A stretch of 64,000 bases of DNA, taken from contig NZ_CP016313.1 of the NCBI RefSeq assembly GCF_001880325.1, forward strand, positions 186,001 to 250,000, written 5' to 3'. Numbering within the stretch: position 1 is the stretch's first letter; the number at the start of each line of letters is the position of its first letter. Below, piece after piece: positions 12,344 through 24,701 of the stretch. The stretch is from Thermus brockianus. Lineage in GTDB: Bacteria; Deinococcota; Deinococci; Deinococcales; Thermaceae. The position numbers and the translations under genes were made by a program. The notes beneath the pieces were generated by a model. It worked only from the letters and a program-made list of their open reading frames with translations, was not told where the DNA came from and made no database searches.

Positions 12344-12834
12344 GTGGCCACCCGTAGCTGGACGCCCAGCGTGCGCCTGCGCAAAGGTGAGGACGAGGTG
12401 GAGGTCCCCATAGACCGCCTCGTGGGCCGGAAGGAGGAGCTCACCCCGACCCAGGTGGTGGAACGGGTCTGGGCCAACCGGGAAGAGGGGGGGCGGGGGT
12501 GGTACGAAACACCCCTCCGCTCCGGAGAGCTCTACGGGCGGGAGCTGGTGGTGGAATACCCCTTTGACTACGACCCCGAACTGGGCTTCGTAGAGTTACC
12601 CAAGGTCTTCCTACGCATTCGCCATCCAGACCCGCAGCGGGTCCAGCTGGTCTATCCGGGGGGGATTTCCGTAGGGACACCAGGGGAAGTCTTGGACTCC
12701 GACCAGCTCCCGGGCAAAACGCGTGCGGTCATCTCATCTGGTACCTGGCGGACTCGGCCTGGGCAGAGCCAATGGAAGAGGTTTCCCAAGACGAGGAAGA
12801 GGAAGCCGAAGAAAACGAGGAAGAGGAGTCCTGA
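12344..12834 (+). pseudogene. Cas6-operon partner, frameshifted near its 3' end
   Basis: From GTG 12344 (AAGGGG upstream) a protein of unknown family reads well for about 120 residues (RELVVEYPFDYDPELGFVEL, then PKVFLRIRHPDPQRVQLVYPGG). Past about 12715 this frame becomes Arg/Lys-rich noise and overruns cas6. In the adjacent frame from 12721 the text becomes protein-like (CGHLIWYLADSAWAEPMEE) and ends in a Glu/Asp-only tail whose TGA (12832-12834) overlaps the cas6 ATG. So one single-base frame error lies at about 12705-12725. Whether this is a real mutation, a sequencing error or a recoding site cannot be told here. The coupling to cas6 suggests a CRISPR-linked protein, but I do not recognise the family. 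Confidence 0.7.
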
Positions 12835-13607
12835 TGCCCTACGCCGTGGTCCTGGAGCTCTTGGGAGATAAGCCCCTCCTCTACCCCGCCAAGTACGCCC
12901 ATGGCCTCTTCTTCGCCCTGCTCTCCCGCTTGGACCCCCAGCTTGCGGCCCGGCTCCACGGGGCCCCACGTAAGCCCTTCACCCTAGCGCCCATCGGCGG
13001 GAGGAACGGGGTTCTCCTCCTACGCTTCACCACCCTGGACGATGCCCTGTTCGCCCCCCTATTGCGGACCCTGTTGGAGGCTGCCCCCGAGGGGCTTCTC
13101 CTAGGGGATAGCCCCTTTCGCTTGAGACGGGTTTTAGCAACCCCCGAGGCTCATCCCCTGGCCGGAGCAACCTCTTGGGAAGCGCTCAGGTTAGCTCCCC
13201 CAAGGAATAGATTGCACCTTCGGTTTCTCAGTCCCACGGTTTTCATCACCTCAAAGCCGGGCGGGCGCACCCGCTTTACGCCCCTTCCGGAACCACGGCT
13301 AATCCTCGGCTCCCTCTTGGACAAATGGCAAGCCCACAGCCCTTATCCCTTCAACCCCAAGGAGGAGGCGGCCCTCCGGGAGCTCTTTGAGCTAGACGCA
13401 GAACTCGCGGGTTTTCACGAGTTGCGGTTCCACAGGGTTCAGGCGGGGAAGGCATTTTTCCCGGGTTTCACAGGGGAGGTCCGAGTAAAACTCTGGAGCG
13501 AAAGCCTGGATGCCCAGGAAGCCCTGGGGCGTCTCCACGCGTTTTCCTTTTTCAGCGGGGTAGGGGCGAAAACCACCTACGGCATGGGCCTGGCCAAGCC
13601 GATCTAA
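12834..13607 (+). CDS. cas6: CRISPR-associated endoribonuclease Cas6
   Basis: Cas6-family pre-crRNA processing RNase of 257 residues. It begins PYAVVLELLGDKPLLYPAKY, close to the Thermus Cas6 proteins I know, and ends with the glycine-rich RNA-binding loop GVGAKTTYGMGLAKPI, the hallmark of the family. A ferredoxin-like domain pair is expected. A His near residue 23 (KYAHGLF) is a candidate catalytic residue by family position. The ATG at 12834 overlaps the TGA of the upstream gene. No CRISPR array, cas1/cas2 or effector genes lie in the window, so it would act on arrays elsewhere or be an orphan. An in-frame extension upstream to 12723 has no ribosome site. Confidence 0.9.
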   Translation: MPYAVVLELLGDKPLLYPAKYAHGLFFALLSRLDPQLAARLHGAPRKPFTLAPIGGRNGVLLLRFTTLDDALFAPLLRTLLEAAPEGLLLGDSPFRLRRVLATPEAHPLAGATSWEALRLAPPRNRLHLRFLSPTVFITSKPGGRTRFTPLPEPRLILGSLLDKWQAHSPYPFNPKEEAALRELFELDAELAGFHELRFHRVQAGKAFFPGFTGEVRVKLWSESLDAQEALGRLHAFSFFSGVGAKTTYGMGLAKPI

Positions 13608-18664: not shown

Positions 18665-19612
18665 CTAGCCGGCTTCCCCCACGAACACGTGCCAGTCCTG
18701 ACGCCCATCCCGGCTCACCGCCAGGTGATAGCGGACGGGCCTGAGGGAAAGCGCCTCGGCCAGGGCGCGCTCAAAGGGGGAAAGGAAAAAGTCCCGCCCT
18801 TCCTGGGCCTCCTTGGGGGAGATCTCCTTCCTCGGGCTCACCACCAGGGCGAGCCTGCCCCCCTGCCGCAGGGCGGGGAGGCTGTACCCCACGAGGTCGG
18901 TGAGGTACTGGACATAGGCGGCGTACCGCTCCTCCGGATCCAGGTCCCGACCTCCTTCCTTTTGGAAGGCGGCGAAGGTGGGGGGGTGGAGCACGAGAAG
19001 GGCCGCCTCCCGGCGGAACCGCTCCCTTAAGTGCCGGATGTCCGCCCGCTCCACGGAGGGCCCCAGGGGTTGGATGTCCCCACCCCAGGCCCTGCGGCCC
19101 AGAGCGCGCGCGGCCTCCACCACGGTGCCGTACCCCGCCATGGGGTCCACCACCAGCTCCCCCCGCTGCGTGTACCGCAGGACGAGGGCCTTGGCCACGA
19201 CCGGGGAAAGGGCTTCCCTTCCCCTTGGATCCGGGGGGAAGAGCCAGATGGGGGCCTCGAGGGGAACCTCCAGGTCCGGGTAGGGCAAAGCCGCCAAAGC
19301 CTCGGGGGGCTTCCCTTCCAGGTCCTCAAGGGTCAGGAGGCCCCGGCGCACCAGGCGGTGGAGGCGGTGGGCTTCCCGCAAGGGCAACCCCTGGCGCAAG
19401 GCCTCCCGCAACACCTCCGGGAGATCCGCCACCGGCAGGAGATCGTGCCGGAGGTACTTGGGGCTGAGCCCAAGCCTCTGGGCGAAGGCCCGGAAGGCGC
19501 TCCGGCCCAGGCGGCGCAGGGCCCGCACGATCTCCCCCTCCCCTACGCCCAACCCTTCCCGCCGCGCCGCCTCCAGAACCCACTCGTACACTTCCCAAGC
19601 GCTCCGCCTCAC
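18665..19612 (-). CDS. SAM-dependent DNA-methyltransferase-like protein
   Basis: Protein of 315 residues. The N-terminal 115 residues are helical and basic (ALRRLGRSAFRAFAQRLGLS, then LREAHRLHRLVRRGLLTLED), probably a DNA-binding region. The methyltransferase domain shows the SAM-binding motif I VVDPMAGYGTVVEAARALGR and an acidic strand end (WGGDIQPLG). Motif IV, normally D/N/S-P-P-Y/F/W, reads LHPPTF, a noticeable variant. This is followed by an YVQYLTDLVGYSLPALRQGG helix typical of N4/N6 amino-methyltransferases. It is divergent from the 90-residue gene at 19696. It might protect DNA as part of a defence or restriction unit with its neighbours; no endonuclease is adjacent. Confidence 0.78.
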   Translation of the reverse strand: MRRSAWEVYEWVLEAARREGLGVGEGEIVRALRRLGRSAFRAFAQRLGLSPKYLRHDLLPVADLPEVLREALRQGLPLREAHRLHRLVRRGLLTLEDLEGKPPEALAALPYPDLEVPLEAPIWLFPPDPRGREALSPVVAKALVLRYTQRGELVVDPMAGYGTVVEAARALGRRAWGGDIQPLGPSVERADIRHLRERFRREAALLVLHPPTFAAFQKEGGRDLDPEERYAAYVQYLTDLVGYSLPALRQGGRLALVVSPRKEISPKEAQEGRDFFLSPFERALAEALSLRPVRYHLAVSRDGRQDWHVFVGEAG

Positions 19613-19695: not shown

Positions 19696-19968
19696 ATGGC
19701 ACCCGACAGGAAGGGCAAGGGAAGCGATGGGGCAAGGTGGCAAGGCGGCGTGAGGAAGGTGCGCCTCTCCGATCTCCAGGGCAACCTGCTCTACGAGGGG
19801 GACGTGGAGGGGCTTCCCCCGGGAGAGGCCCGGGAGTACTGGGAGGCCGTGAAGGCGCACTACGGGGACGGGTACGCTTGGGAATACCTCAAGGCCAAGG
19901 CTCCCCCCCTCGCCCTGGTCTACCGGGGCTACGCCTTGGAGGTGGTGGAGGAGGGCGATGACGCTTAA
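19696..19968 (+). CDS. Hypothetical protein, first of three co-oriented unknown genes
   Basis: Protein of 90 residues. A basic disordered start (APDRKGKGSDGARWQGGVRK) leads into a small beta domain (VRLSDLQGNLLYEGDVEGLP) and a helix (EAREYWEAVKAHYGDGYAWEYLKA). AAGGAGAG lies 5 bases before ATG 19696; an in-frame ATG at 19678 lacks a comparable site. It is followed after 34 bases by the 337-residue unknown. No family recognised. Confidence 0.65.
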   Translation: MAPDRKGKGSDGARWQGGVRKVRLSDLQGNLLYEGDVEGLPPGEAREYWEAVKAHYGDGYAWEYLKAKAPPLALVYRGYALEVVEEGDDA

Positions 19969-20002: not shown

Positions 20003-21016
20003 ATGAATGCGGTGGACTGGTTCTTGCAGGAACTCAAGAAGCGTGAGTGGGGCGAGAAAGCCCTTTCCCTGGCGGAGAACCTGGATCGGCGTGGGCTGGA
20101 ACTCTGGGCCTCGGCAGAGCTCCGGATGAGGGAACGGGGTGGCCTCGAGGGGTGGGAGGCGCCCACGTGGCGCGAGGAGCCCGAAAAGGTGGCCGCTTGG
20201 GCTAAGGGCGGTTGGCTCCAGCGGTGGGTGGCGGCACTCCACCCCCAGGCCCCTCAAAGGGCGCTAAAGGACTTGGCCGCCGATTCCGTTCCCTTCATCG
20301 CCCGCTTGGCCCAGGCCCGGCTTTCCCCCTTCCCTCCCCCGCCACCCATCCCGGTGCGCATCGTGCTGGCGGAGCGGGATGCGGGCGAGATCATGATCCT
20401 GAGCCCCGAGTGCGAAAACTGGTGGTTGAGGGATCTGCGGGAGCTCCAAGAAGCGGTGCGGTTAGGGCGTATGCCTCTGCAACGGGCCCTGGACTTCGTG
20501 CGCCACCTGCCAAGGAGCTGGGTGGCCTCGCAGCTGGACAACCTCTTGGATTGCGCCGAAGGCCCCCAGGAGGAGGTCGGGGCTCGAGGCCAAGACCCGG
20601 CCCTCCTCATCGCTTACGCGCACGAGCTCCCCACGGATGGCATCTACGATACCAACGCCTCGCAGGCAGAGGACCTCCTAATTGAGCTCCTTTGGGAGCT
20701 TGACCTCGACCTCAAAGAGCCCGTCCACCAGGCCTTCTCGGAGGAGGAGCTCCTGGAGTGGTTGTCCATGGGGTACGTGGGGGGGATAGACGACCTTTTG
20801 CTCAAGGCCGTGGGCTTTTACCCCGAGTATGCCCATCTGGCTACCTTCCCGGGGGGCTCGCTCCTCATGGTGTACTTTGACGGGATGACGGGCGGTGAAG
20901 CGCCTTTTATCATGGGCACCCCCTTCCCCGAGGAACTCAAGGGGTGGCAGGGGCTTGGCAGGATCCTGGAAGCGGTACGCCCAGGGCACTACCTGCTGAC
21001 CTGGGACTGGAGGTAA
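20003..21016 (+). CDS. Hypothetical protein (337 aa)
   Basis: Largely helical and acidic protein with many Trp residues. Landmarks: VDWFLQELKKREWGEKALSL at the N-terminus, a Pro-rich turn at about residue 110 (SPFPPPPPIPVRIVLAERD), the middle ECENWWLRDLRELQEAV, and a C-terminal half with beta content (GGSLLMVYFDGMTGGEAPF). A SMI1/KNR4-like element is conceivable from the acidic DDLLLKAVGFYPEYAHLATF stretch, but I cannot confirm it. AAGGAGG precedes ATG 20003. It is in one operon with 19696 and 21024, between a methyltransferase-like gene and Argonaute. Confidence 0.7.
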   Translation: MNAVDWFLQELKKREWGEKALSLAENLDRRGLELWASAELRMRERGGLEGWEAPTWREEPEKVAAWAKGGWLQRWVAALHPQAPQRALKDLAADSVPFIARLAQARLSPFPPPPPIPVRIVLAERDAGEIMILSPECENWWLRDLRELQEAVRLGRMPLQRALDFVRHLPRSWVASQLDNLLDCAEGPQEEVGARGQDPALLIAYAHELPTDGIYDTNASQAEDLLIELLWELDLDLKEPVHQAFSEEELLEWLSMGYVGGIDDLLLKAVGFYPEYAHLATFPGGSLLMVYFDGMTGGEAPFIMGTPFPEELKGWQGLGRILEAVRPGHYLLTWDWR

Positions 21017-21023
21017 GCAAGCC

Positions 21024-21302
21024 ATGTCCGAGAAGCGCACCCTTACCCCGGAAGAGTGGGCAGAGATGCTGGCTTGGCTTCGGCCCCGGCTATCGGTGGG
21101 CGTGCGGGACAACCCCATGCTGTTGAGCCTCAAACCCCGTGAGGCGGCGGAGATCGTCCTGAAGCGCCTGAACGCCCAGCACCTCACCGAGTTTCAGGAG
21201 GAGTGGGTGATAAGGGAGCTGGTGAACCTGTCCCGCACGCCCCTCTCCTTCATGTTGAACCTGGAGGCGTTGGTCCGGTATCGGCTGGGCCTGCGGGATT
21301 AG
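21024..21302 (+). CDS. Hypothetical protein (92 aa)
   Basis: Small helical protein (TPEEWAEMLAWLRPRLSVGV, then LKPREAAEIVLKRLNAQHL, then EEWVIRELVNLSRTPLSFML). GGAGGT overlaps the end of the 337-residue gene and leads to ATG 21024, 7 bases after the upstream stop, so the two are coupled. It could be a small partner of that protein. No family recognised. A perfect 13-base inverted repeat follows it at 21326-21368. Confidence 0.7.
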   Translation: MSEKRTLTPEEWAEMLAWLRPRLSVGVRDNPMLLSLKPREAAEIVLKRLNAQHLTEFQEEWVIRELVNLSRTPLSFMLNLEALVRYRLGLRD

Positions 21303-21481
21303 CGGGCCTGGGGGATGGCGCACCAGGTGGGGCTCACCTCCAGGCGCACGCCGAGGGTGAGCCCCACCCACCAGGGCTCAGGGGCGAGGGCACAAAGCCC
21401 CAATCGTTCCCCCAAAGCCAGACACGCCCGGTCCCCAAAGGAAAGCCCTGCGGAGCGGGTCAAGGGCCGCAGGCAGGCCAC
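21299..21481 (-). pseudogene. C-terminal remnant of a PIN/VapC toxin gene
   Basis: The minus-strand frame reads GLSFGDRACLALGERLGL, the hallmark of the last PIN helix (L-S-x-G-D-R-A-C-L-A-L-A), then a degraded end where a TADRAW-like strand is expected (CALAPEPWWVGLTLGVRLEV). No N-terminal half with the first Asp is found upstream. It is a decayed toxin fragment overlapping the end of the 92-residue gene. Confidence 0.6.
21326..21368. repeat. Perfect 13-bp inverted repeat
   Basis: GGTGGGGCTCACC (21326-21338) and GGTGAGCCCCACC (21356-21368) are exact reverse complements around 17 bases. Located just after the three-gene operon, it may act as a terminator-like barrier, although no T-run follows; it also overlaps the vapC remnant. 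Confidence 0.6.
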
Positions 21482-22050
21482 CTCCAGATTAGGTGGTTTT
21501 CAACCCGTCTTCCCCCCACCGCTTTCGCCCTCGCCCCCTTGGCCCACCGCCACTCCCCCCTTGCCCTCCACCGCGCTATACCGGGGCCACGTGTGGAAAG
21601 CGCGCGGGCGGGACCAACGGGGAGGAAATCCCCACGGGGATATCCTCCGGCTTTCCCTCGAGGCCATCCACCCGAGCCCTATCCGGGCGCACCCCGCCGA
21701 GGACGAGGCGGTACCGGGCAGTCCAAGCCCTGGGGGTGTGCGCTACCAAGGCTCGGATCTAGCCGGTTCCATAAAGGGGACCCTATTTCTTTCCGCAGGG
21801 GAAACGTTGACAACCCCTGGGACCGAAGTCCCCGGCGTCTTCTCTGCGGATTCCAAAGCCCCAAGGGTAGGGTTGCCGCACCTATACCACAGGGAAACCG
21901 CCAAAGGTCGCAGGGGAGGCCTCGAGGCCCGCCCTACCGCCCCCAGGAGGCAGGGCTTTGGGAGTGGGCTTGGCTCCCCACCTGCCCAATCCCATGCCAT
22001 TTGCATCTTTCCCAAGCCCTAGCCTTGTCCACTAGAACGCCTTAGCCCCC
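21482..22050. other. Decayed DNA upstream of Argonaute
   Basis: No intact gene. A minus-strand string at about 21590-21740 (TARYRLVLGGVRPDRARVDG, then GKPEDIPVGISSPLVPPARF) is coding-like but ends at an in-frame stop and has no start. GGGAC-CGAA-GTCCC near 21820 is a minor hairpin. Confidence 0.45.
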
Positions 22051-22079
22051 TTGCTTGGATTCCATTGCTCGTTTAAACT
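22051..22079 (+). promoter_or_regulatory. Leaderless promoter of the Argonaute gene
   Basis: TTGCTT (22051-22056) and TAAACT (22074-22079) are exactly 17 bases apart, and the ATG at 22088 follows 8 bases later, where transcription should begin. No ribosome site precedes the ATG, so a leaderless message is predicted. Confidence 0.6.
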
Positions 22080-22087
22080 GCTACCGA

Positions 22088-24157
22088 ATGATGGGGGATT
22101 CCAGAAGCCTCGAGGTTCGTCTCAACCGCTTCCTCCTGCGGCCTCTCCGTCCAGAGGAGCGAGAGCCCTGGCTCTTGGTTAGCGAGCTCAACCCACCCCC
22201 TAGCAGGGAGGACGTGCATGCCCTCCTCGCCCTCCTGGCCAACCGGGCGGGAGGGCGAACGGCGCGCATGGGGGACTCGCTCCTCACCTGGTCGCCGCCG
22301 GAGTCCCTCCTGCTAGAGGGAACCCTTAGCTGGCGGGGCAACACCTACACCTACCGCCTCCGCCCCCTGGCGCGAAGGGTCTTGAACCCCCGCAACCCCT
22401 CCGAGCGGGATGCCCTTTCCGCTCTGGCCCGCAGGCTGCTTCGGGAGGTGCTAGAACAGTTCCGCCGGGAGGGCTTCTGGGTTGAGGGGTGGGCGTTCTA
22501 TCGGAAAGAACACGCCCGGGGCCCCGGGTGGCGGGTACTAAAAGGAGCGGCTCTAGACCTTTGGGTCTCCGCCGAAGGAGCGATGGTCCTGGAGGTTGAC
22601 CCCACCTACCGTATCCTCTGCGATATGACCCTCGAGGCCTGGCTCGCCCAAGGCCACCCCCCACCCAAGCGGGTTAAGAACGCCTACAATGACCGCACCT
22701 GGGAGCTCCTCGGGCTAGGGGAGGAAGACCCCCAAGGCATCCTGCTTCCAGGGGGCCTGAACCTTGTGGAGTACCACGCTTCCAAAGGACGGATTCGGGA
22801 TGGCGGGTGGGGCCGGGTGGCGTGGGTGGCAAACCCCAAGGACGCCAAGGAGAAAATTCCCCACCTGACGAGCCTGCTCATCCCGGTGCTTACCCTCGAG
22901 GACCTCCACGAAGAAGGGGGATCTAACCTAGCCTTGTCCATCCCTTGGAACCAACGCCAGGAAGAAACGCTCAAGGTTGCCCTCTCGGTGGCGCGAAGGC
23001 TCGGGGTGGAACACCCCAAGCCCGTGGAGGCAAAGGCGTGGCGTATGCGCATGCCCGAGCTTCGGGCCCGAAGGAGGGTCGGCAAGCCGGCGGATGCGCT
23101 ACGCGTGGGGCTTTACCGGGCTCAGGAAACCACCCTGGCCCTCCTCCGCCTGGATGGGGGGAGAGGATGGCCCGATTTCCTCCTTAAGGCCTTGGAAAAC
23201 GCTTTTAGGGCAAGCCAGGCCCGGCTCCATGTCCGGGAAATCCATGCGGACCCTTCCCAGCCCCTCGCCTTTCGCGAAGCCCTGGAAGAGGCGAAAGAGG
23301 CGGGCGTTCAAGCCGTACTGGTTCTCACCCCACCCCTTTCTTGGGAAGAGCGCCACCGCCTTAAGGCCCTCTTCCTAAAGGAGGGGCTCCCGAGCCAGCT
23401 CCTCAACGTCCCCATTCAAAGAGAAGAGCGCCATCGCTTAGAAAACGCCCTTCTTGGGCTTCTCGCCAAGGCGGGGTTACAGGTGGTAGCGCTGGAAGGG
23501 GCCTACCCCGCGGACCTAACCGTGGGGTTTGATGCGGGAGGCAGGAAGTCCTTCCGCTTTGGGGGCGCCGCCTGTGCCGTGGGGAGCGATGGCGGGCATC
23601 TCCTCTGGAGCCTTCCTGAGGCGCAGGCGGGTGAACGCATCCCTGGAGAAGTGGTCTGGGACCTCCTGGAGGAGGCCCTTCTGGTCTTTAAGCGCAAGCG
23701 TGGAAGGCTTCCTTCCCGGGTTCTCCTCCTTCGCGACGGTCGCCTGCCAAAAGACGAGTTCACCCTGGCTCTGGCGAAGCTTCGCCAGTTAGGGATCGGC
23801 TTTGACCTGGTATCCGTGCGGAAATCTGGGGGTGGCAGGATTTACCCCACCCGTGGCCGCCTCTTGGATGGCCTCCTCGTGCCAGTAGAGGAGAGGACGT
23901 TTTTGCTCCTCACCGTACACCGGGAGTTCCGGGGCACGCCGAGGCCTCTCAAGCTGGTGCACGAGGAAGGGGAGACGCCCCTAGAGGCCTTGGCGGAACA
24001 GATCTACCACCTGACCCGACTTTACCCGGCAAGCGGTTTCGCCTTCCCTCGGCTCCCCGCACCCCTGCACCTGGCGGACCGCTTGGTTAAAGAAGTGGGC
24101 CGGCTCGGCGTGCGCCACCTAAAGGAGGTGGACCGGGAAAAGCTCTTCTTCGTGTAG
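22088..24157 (+). CDS. ago: Prokaryotic Argonaute (TtAgo-like, catalytically intact)
   Basis: Long-type prokaryotic Argonaute of 689 residues; TtAgo is 685. Using DNA guides, TtAgo cleaves DNA, defends against plasmids and helps separate replicated chromosomes. The N-terminal domain (RLNRFLLRPL), PAZ region (GPGWRVLKGAALDLWVS), MID (RVGKPADALRVGLYRAQETT) and PIWI domains follow in order. The DEDD tetrad is present: Asp482 in VGFDAGG, Glu516 in AQAGERIP, Asp550 in LLLRDGR and Asp664 in LHLADRLVKEV. The C-terminus HLKEVDREKLFFV matches TtAgo as remembered. The start at 22088 (or the adjacent ATG 22091) is chosen from the leaderless promoter; an upstream TTG at 22055 falls inside that promoter. 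It is transcribed alone and ends at a hairpin terminator. Confidence 0.97.
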   Translation: MMGDSRSLEVRLNRFLLRPLRPEEREPWLLVSELNPPPSREDVHALLALLANRAGGRTARMGDSLLTWSPPESLLLEGTLSWRGNTYTYRLRPLARRVLNPRNPSERDALSALARRLLREVLEQFRREGFWVEGWAFYRKEHARGPGWRVLKGAALDLWVSAEGAMVLEVDPTYRILCDMTLEAWLAQGHPPPKRVKNAYNDRTWELLGLGEEDPQGILLPGGLNLVEYHASKGRIRDGGWGRVAWVANPKDAKEKIPHLTSLLIPVLTLEDLHEEGGSNLALSIPWNQRQEETLKVALSVARRLGVEHPKPVEAKAWRMRMPELRARRRVGKPADALRVGLYRAQETTLALLRLDGGRGWPDFLLKALENAFRASQARLHVREIHADPSQPLAFREALEEAKEAGVQAVLVLTPPLSWEERHRLKALFLKEGLPSQLLNVPIQREERHRLENALLGLLAKAGLQVVALEGAYPADLTVGFDAGGRKSFRFGGAACAVGSDGGHLLWSLPEAQAGERIPGEVVWDLLEEALLVFKRKRGRLPSRVLLLRDGRLPKDEFTLALAKLRQLGIGFDLVSVRKSGGGRIYPTRGRLLDGLLVPVEERTFLLLTVHREFRGTPRPLKLVHEEGETPLEALAEQIYHLTRLYPASGFAFPRLPAPLHLADRLVKEVGRLGVRHLKEVDREKLFFV

Positions 24158-24208: not shown

Positions 24209-24239
24209 AACCCCCACCGCTGGTCCCGGTGGGGGGGTT
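24209..24239 (+). terminator. Hairpin terminator after ago
   Basis: CCCCCACCG (24211-24219) pairs with CGGTGGGGG (24227-24235) across a short loop, flanked by AA on the left and TT on the right, 50 bases after the ago stop. It can serve both strands, since the next gene is convergent. Confidence 0.75.
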
Positions 24240-24275: not shown

Positions 24276-24701
24276 CTAGGGCTTCTTAGGGAGAGCGGCC
24301 TTAGAGGAAGTAAGGGCTTTCACCATTCCCAAGTTCCCATCCTTTCCAATGGCCACGTGCCTATTCTTGAGCAGGACACTAAGGGCGTAAACGTTCTTGC
24401 CCACCCGCACCCTTACCGAGGCAAGGCTGGTGGCCTTTCCCACCACGGGGTAGCGGTAAGTCTCCCCCGAAGGCAAGGAAAACACTACGTAAGCCGCCTT
24501 GCCCACCTCCTCCGCGCTCGGGAGCGTGCCCTTACCCGTCTGCCACAGCGCCATCCCCTTGGCGTCCTCCAGGACCAAGACCGTACCCGGAGGCAAGCTC
24601 CTGGGCGGGAAGACGCTCGCCACCTTAAGCCCGTTATGCCCACCCACCGAGGCCGCCATGGCCATGGCCGAAGCGAGAAGCAACCCCATTACCCTTTTCA
24701 T
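24276..24701 (-). CDS. Secreted protein of unknown function
   Basis: Exported protein of 141 residues: signal peptide KRVMGLLLASAMAMAASV, then a beta-rich domain (LPPGTVLVLEDAKGMALWQT, then AAYVVFSLPSGETYRYPVVG and VRVRVGKNVYALSVLLK). No family recognised. It overlaps the kinase gene by 4 bases and is last in the cytochrome/regulator/kinase operon, so it may be a periplasmic sensor accessory or a target of the two-component system. Confidence 0.75.
   Translation of the reverse strand: MKRVMGLLLASAMAMAASVGGHNGLKVASVFPPRSLPPGTVLVLEDAKGMALWQTGKGTLPSAEEVGKAAYVVFSLPSGETYRYPVVGKATSLASVRVRVGKNVYALSVLLKNRHVAIGKDGNLGMVKALTSSKAALPKKP

Follow-up and report, generated by a model that had tools for sequence, protein, structure and literature searches.

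Whether the Argonaute gene (ago) carried by a strain of Thermus brockianus encodes a catalytic protein, and from which signals it could be transcribed and translated when no ribosome-binding site precedes its start codon, are the questions raised by the locus described here. The window, i.e., the whole stretch of 64,000 nucleotides that was analyzed, belongs to a contig of 342,792 bases (positions 186001-250000); the genome as a whole totals 2.39 Mb in three contigs. Given that its Argonaute is 99.9% identical to that on plasmid pTbrSNM4-1b of T. brockianus SNM4-1, the window is taken, by this match, to represent the T. brockianus megaplasmid. No prior statement on a T. brockianus Argonaute, or on a leaderless prokaryotic or Thermus Argonaute, was found in the open-access literature, most subscription papers lying outside this scope. 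The reading that is considered quite probable is that the gene specifies a catalytic ortholog of the Thermus thermophilus Argonaute (TtAgo), possesses its own core promoter (TAAACT), and would be expressed as a single-gene unit from a leaderless or nearly leaderless mRNA.

The coding sequence (Table 1) ends with a stop codon at 24155-24157 and contains no internal stop or frameshift, and the public annotation of SNM4-1 starts the gene at the same ATG. The protein is 73% identical to TtAgo, and all four Argonaute domains (N, PAZ, MID, and PIWI) are found in a single chain, with the Pfam models Ago_N_2, PAZ_3, Ago_Mid, and Piwi each scoring above cut-off. Among solved proteins, TtAgo entries are the nearest (best chain match 1085.7 bits, aligned over residues 8-689), and the PADLOC pAgo model is matched with an E value of 1.4e-258. 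The NCBIfam equivalog NF048006 (protein argonaute) yielded 20.2 bits against a curated cut-off of 700 bits, and we take it to be a model of another Argonaute subgroup. Since an AlphaFold model of the protein was too poor for use (mean pLDDT 60.9, pTM 0.38), the fold is assigned from the identity to TtAgo, for which solved structures exist.

The DEDD tetrad D482/E516/D550/D664 aligns with that of TtAgo and is invariant in all 10 aligned sequences, a set that includes the window protein and one N-terminally truncated sequence. The same alignment leaves R422, K426, Q437, K461, and the C-terminal V689 unchanged, residues which correspond to those forming the 5'-phosphate guide pocket in the MID domain of TtAgo. 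Ka/Ks ratios from Nei-Gojobori counts are low for the five relatives compared (about 0.17-0.41). The ratio is about 0.17 for G011, whose gene survives in part and was compared at 566 codons, 0.21 for T. parvatiensis, and 0.34-0.41 for three more distant relatives, for which synonymous sites are near saturation. The initial annotation had proposed an intact catalytic Argonaute with all four DEDD residues; the identity, the domains, the conserved tetrad, and the low Ka/Ks bear this out, and the residue numbers are correct when counted from ATG 22088. At the level of sequence, the assignment as a catalytic long-A Argonaute orthologous to TtAgo is well supported. TtAgo itself, from the pTT27 megaplasmids of T. 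thermophilus HB27 and HB8, has the same domains, tetrad, and megaplasmid location, with 685 residues against 689 here. Plasmid Argonautes of haloarchaea, Pontibacillus, and Hydrogenophilus resemble the window protein in its MID/PIWI part, the 12 listed from other taxa showing 24-34% identity over 27-40% of the protein, and a search of phage records returned one distant match (24% identity).

Table 1. Positions of the ago gene, its catalytic codons, and its putative expression signals within the window
Feature	Positions	Strand	Remarks
Weak -35-like TTGCTT	22051..22056	+	3/6 to consensus; not conserved
-10 box TAAACT	22074..22079	+	8 bases before ATG 22088
Predicted transcription start	22086..22088	+	7-9 bases downstream of the -10 box; from promoter geometry
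ago coding sequence, TtAgo ortholog	22088..24157	+	689 aa; N, PAZ, MID, PIWI domains
Second in-frame ATG, alternative start	22091..22093	+	aligns with annotated HB27 TtAgo start
Catalytic Asp482 codon	23531..23533	+	numbered from ATG 22088
Catalytic Glu516 codon	23633..23635	+	numbered from ATG 22088
Catalytic Asp550 codon	23735..23737	+	numbered from ATG 22088
Catalytic Asp664 codon	24077..24079	+	numbered from ATG 22088
Stable hairpin, -22.6 kcal/mol	24209..24239	+	probable transcript end, perhaps shared with convergent gene; no T-run
Convergent hypothetical gene	24276..24701	-	downstream of ago; SNM4-1 annotation shorter, to equivalent of 24623

The gene opens with tandem ATGs (22088 and 22091), and none of the Shine-Dalgarno cores of the list used occurs before any of three in-frame starts, in agreement with the initial annotation, which had noted that a ribosome site was missing. 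It had also described a TTGCTT/TAAACT promoter with a 17-base spacer, followed by 8 bases to ATG 22088. Both hexamers are present at this spacing, but a -35 function beyond chance could not be upheld for the first of them: it matches TTGACA at three of six positions, 38% of shuffles contain an equally good match at spacing 16-18 (4% contain a TTG triplet there), and the promoter was not among the results of a stricter consensus scan. A conserved -35 element was likewise rejected, the other four lineages with a box (described below) reaching no more than 3, 2, 2, and 1 of 6. This hexamer is no better than chance, and the argument for a leaderless transcript does not depend on it. When a box-to-start spacing of six bases (N6) is taken to correspond to initiation on the A of the start codon, the N8 spacing found here would place the RNA start at ATG 22088 or within two bases upstream, leaving a leader of 0-2 bases.

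The TAAACT box was compared across orthologs. In each, every in-frame ATG, GTG, or TTG lying between the last stop codon and the conserved LNRF motif, at most 90 bases ahead of the latter, was considered as a candidate start, and a box was scored when TANNNT ended 5-9 bases before one of them. Such a box lies 7-8 bases before a start codon in five of six ortholog lineages, or in five of seven when a remnant in G059 is counted. TAAACT-N8-ATG is found in the window (shuffle chance 0.18) and in G071, from another genus of the family and with a 59% identical protein (0.08); TATGAT-N7-GTG in G019 (0.09), where the GTG start is our own reading; and TATAAT-N7-ATG in T. arciformis (0.05) and T. scotoductus (0.20). 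In the T. thermophilus lineage (five sequences: HB27, HB8, T. parvatiensis, Thermus sp. 2.9, and G026), no TANNNT occurs at N5-9 at three candidate starts (shuffle chance 0.14-0.16), so that its start lacks an adjoining box whereas the window combines TAAACT with two tandem ATGs. The annotated starts within this lineage also differ, HB8 being annotated from an inner GTG (L014:7929) and HB27 from a farther-upstream ATG (L013:9905), with both codons present in both sequences. The G059 remnant, the 48-residue N-terminal piece of a broken gene from yet another genus, offers a single candidate start, which no box precedes, and G011 was left out of the lineage count because the 5' end of its gene is gone. 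If the lineages are treated as independent, the chance of at least five boxed among six is 1.2e-4, and that of at least five among seven, with G059, is 3.0e-4; considering that the lineages are related, the box counts as evidence of a retained element and not of independent origins.

Base-by-base conservation beyond the box is limited to the comparison with G071. Since a MAFFT alignment of the promoter regions left the starts out of line, a start-anchored comparison was used. Over the 17 bases from the window box through the ATG, 14 are identical and in register, a score that 2 of 2000 shuffles reach anywhere in the region, and when identities are counted in successive blocks of 10 bases between -50 and -1, the blocks agree at 5, 3, 1, 4, and 7 positions. 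The other lineages match the same 17 bases at 10-11 positions, mostly out of register, which is chance level, and the two T. brockianus records, which do not differ within the upstream 1200 bases, add no comparative information. Through the box beside the start in five of six lineages, the leaderless prediction of the initial annotation gains comparative support.

To place this arrangement in a genomic background, 59 of the 61 CDS in two annotated Thermus plasmid stretches were examined, with two cut CDS dropped and both ago genes included. A start-adjacent box is present at 11 of the 59 genes; the corresponding rates are 2.0% in upstream control bins (7/354) and 2.8% in shuffled sequences. 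Ten of these 11 genes lack a Shine-Dalgarno core, which is present in 30 of the 59 overall. The box is about as frequent at the first genes of transcription units (6/29) as at inner ones (5/30). The box-to-start spacing is N6 in seven boxed genes, N7 in two, and N8 in two, so that the N8 of the window stands at the long end of the 6-8 range in this sample. In two published studies, leaderless genes average 39.4% in five Deinococcus-Thermus genomes (PMC3160421), and open reading frames (ORFs) with a -10 box account for about 30% in the phylum, a classical -35 being absent from most such genes of Deinococcus radiodurans (PMC12340547). With such genes ago shares a TANNNT near the start, no ribosome site, and no good -35 (PMC12340547, PMC3160421), with no essential difference apart from the long spacing of 8. 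The window gene thus fits the known leaderless pattern of Deinococcus-Thermus.

An improbable alternative is that ago is carried on a transcript starting farther upstream, for example by read-through from the plus-strand ORFs at 20003-21016 and 21024-21302, with translation proceeding in some other way that needs no Shine-Dalgarno sequence. The absence of a clear box from the T. thermophilus lineage speaks for it, as does a study of HB27, where deletion of ago cut nearby same-strand RNA 3- to 6-fold, so that transcripts may be linked there; its authors take polar effects as most likely (PMC4406477). Against it stand the retention of the box beside the start in five of six lineages despite differing neighbors and a gap of 785 bases that separates ago from the closest same-strand gene on its upstream side in the SNM4-1 annotation (end at 21302); an ORF annotated on the opposite strand at 21299-21481 (SNM4-1 coordinates carried over) falls inside this gap. 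A mechanically called plus-strand ORF in the gap (21203-22045) is unannotated in SNM4-1 and has no Pfam match.

The initial annotation had placed the end of the transcript at a hairpin, and a strong hairpin does follow the stop codon, only 2 of 2080 35-base windows of the surroundings folding as stably, its own windows included. A canonical intrinsic terminator was rejected at this hairpin, which has no T-run and is absent from the terminator scan. Because of the lacking T-run, and because the 126-base context is no more stable than shuffles (z +0.44), the hairpin is called a probable, non-canonical end. G011 keeps the downstream neighbors and a counterpart of the hairpin with one C-G to T-A double change. 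We infer a single-gene transcript, which fits the convergent ORF and the upstream gap.

The flanks of ago were compared using ORFs of 100 codons or longer, up to 6 kb away from the gene, at seven loci of six lineages, with the HB27/G026 pair, which forms one lineage, excluded. No immediate neighbor is common to different lineages, and a conserved operon partner was rejected; only scattered matches farther off were found (nagA, for instance, recurs between HB27 and T. arciformis), and a 94-residue flank match between G026 and T. brockianus falls inside ago itself. The T. thermophilus gene is surrounded by surE, a DsrE-like gene, alkaline phosphatase, and cobalamin genes, from which the neighbors in the window differ. 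Two uncharacterised same-strand ORFs lie upstream of ago, of which 20003-21016 has no Pfam, NCBIfam, or PADLOC match and 21024-21302 no NCBIfam or PADLOC match; G011 contains the latter and part of the former. A defense partner was looked for beside ago, but the ORFs at 19750-19965, 20003-21013, 21024-21299, 21299-21481, and 24276-24701 matched no model of PADLOC or NCBIfam. Farther upstream, the ORF at 18665-19612 shows a local likeness to N4/N6 DNA methylases just below the Pfam cut-off.

It is very unlikely that the protein, although folded and guide-binding, is inactive or silent in this strain. What lends this some weight is the frequency of broken ago genes in Thermus and the state of the near relative G011, in which the promoter and roughly 84 N-terminal residues are missing and the ~25 residues that follow are degraded (L017:6401-8700). 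The window gene itself has neither stop nor frameshift, and its intact tetrad and low Ka/Ks point the other way. Matches were found in 8 of 27 genomes of the genus and in 10 of 111 of the phylum, the window's own genome being counted in both; these 10 include G011, without the N-terminal part, and the G059 fragment. A contig scan that used the protein alone returned no relative, and one that used the alignment returned four Thermus loci. Among 33 Thermus plasmid records with an ago match, 21 show an uninterrupted match spanning at least residues 34-689 and 11 do not, with AA1-1 set apart, since its match runs to the end of the circular record. Two laboratory-strain records have a transposase gene inside ago, as seen from the annotation for one (an HB27 derivative) and from the match listing for the other; HB5018 has ago in three pieces; the match in AK1 ends at residue 651 beside transposase genes, with the fourth catalytic position lost; six records (one of them inspected) hold only 58 residues; and one T. 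aquaticus record holds only residues 593-689. Such broken and partial records mark ago as an accessory gene, often damaged or lost, and laboratory lines with a transposase-broken gene may be silent ago mutants. In the HB27 derivative the transposase gene interrupts ago at L016:4905-8000, and in AK1 transposase genes follow the truncated ago at L028:2905-6808. In G011, nearly 5 kb with other ORFs separates ago from the upstream ORFs, and one of the intervening ORFs is similar to an RCC1-repeat protein.

Translation from TTG 22055, which would give a 700-residue protein, is hardly credible, for although the reading frame is open from this codon, no Shine-Dalgarno core precedes it, the N-terminal extension would overlap the -10 box, the public SNM4-1 annotation uses the ATG, and the HB27 start aligns with ATG 22091.

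Under the leaderless reading, ago would be transcribed from its own core promoter, with the TAAACT box setting a start point on or within two bases of ATG 22088, and the ribosome would begin at the 5'-terminal AUG without a Shine-Dalgarno sequence; the resulting one-gene unit would be bounded by the hairpin and the convergent neighbor. TtAgo is reported to cut DNA with DNA guides and to lower plasmid content (PMC4406477), and to help complete replication under gyrase inhibition (PMC10269773). By orthology, the T. brockianus protein is most likely guided by short 5'-phosphorylated DNAs to cleave matching DNA, which would lower plasmid load and perhaps help to finish replication.

In kind, the gene is ordinary: it adds a member to the TtAgo group, and its likely mode of expression is common in Deinococcus-Thermus. 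The less ordinary feature, judged from sequence comparison, appears to be a start-fused promoter kept across changing neighborhoods and missing in T. thermophilus. Considering that ago is found at changing sites and that the box is fused to its start, the gene would keep its own expression signal anywhere. A tentative generalization, put forward as a possibility and with more doubt than confidence, is that Thermaceae ago is a portable stand-alone gene that brings a start-fused core promoter to each new site, and that in the T. thermophilus lineage, from which the TtAgo work cited here comes, this box was lost and expression of ago may be atypical and neighbor-dependent. The low ago RNA of HB27 (FPKM below 150) and the lowering of same-strand neighbors upon ago deletion, as reported in PMC4406477, agree with a possibly different expression mode in that lineage. 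If a start-fused promoter is general in Thermaceae and was lost in T. thermophilus, the expression level and regulation seen in HB27 need not hold genus-wide. The locus provides another intact thermophilic Argonaute for tools and physiology, together with a testable expression model.

Elsewhere in the window, a cas6-like gene at 12834-13604 is 97% identical to its annotated SNM4-1 counterpart, and no direct-repeat family of at least 26 bases was found within the window. The segment 16932-17174 contains five imperfect, partly overlapping, and unevenly spaced copies of a 34-base unit.
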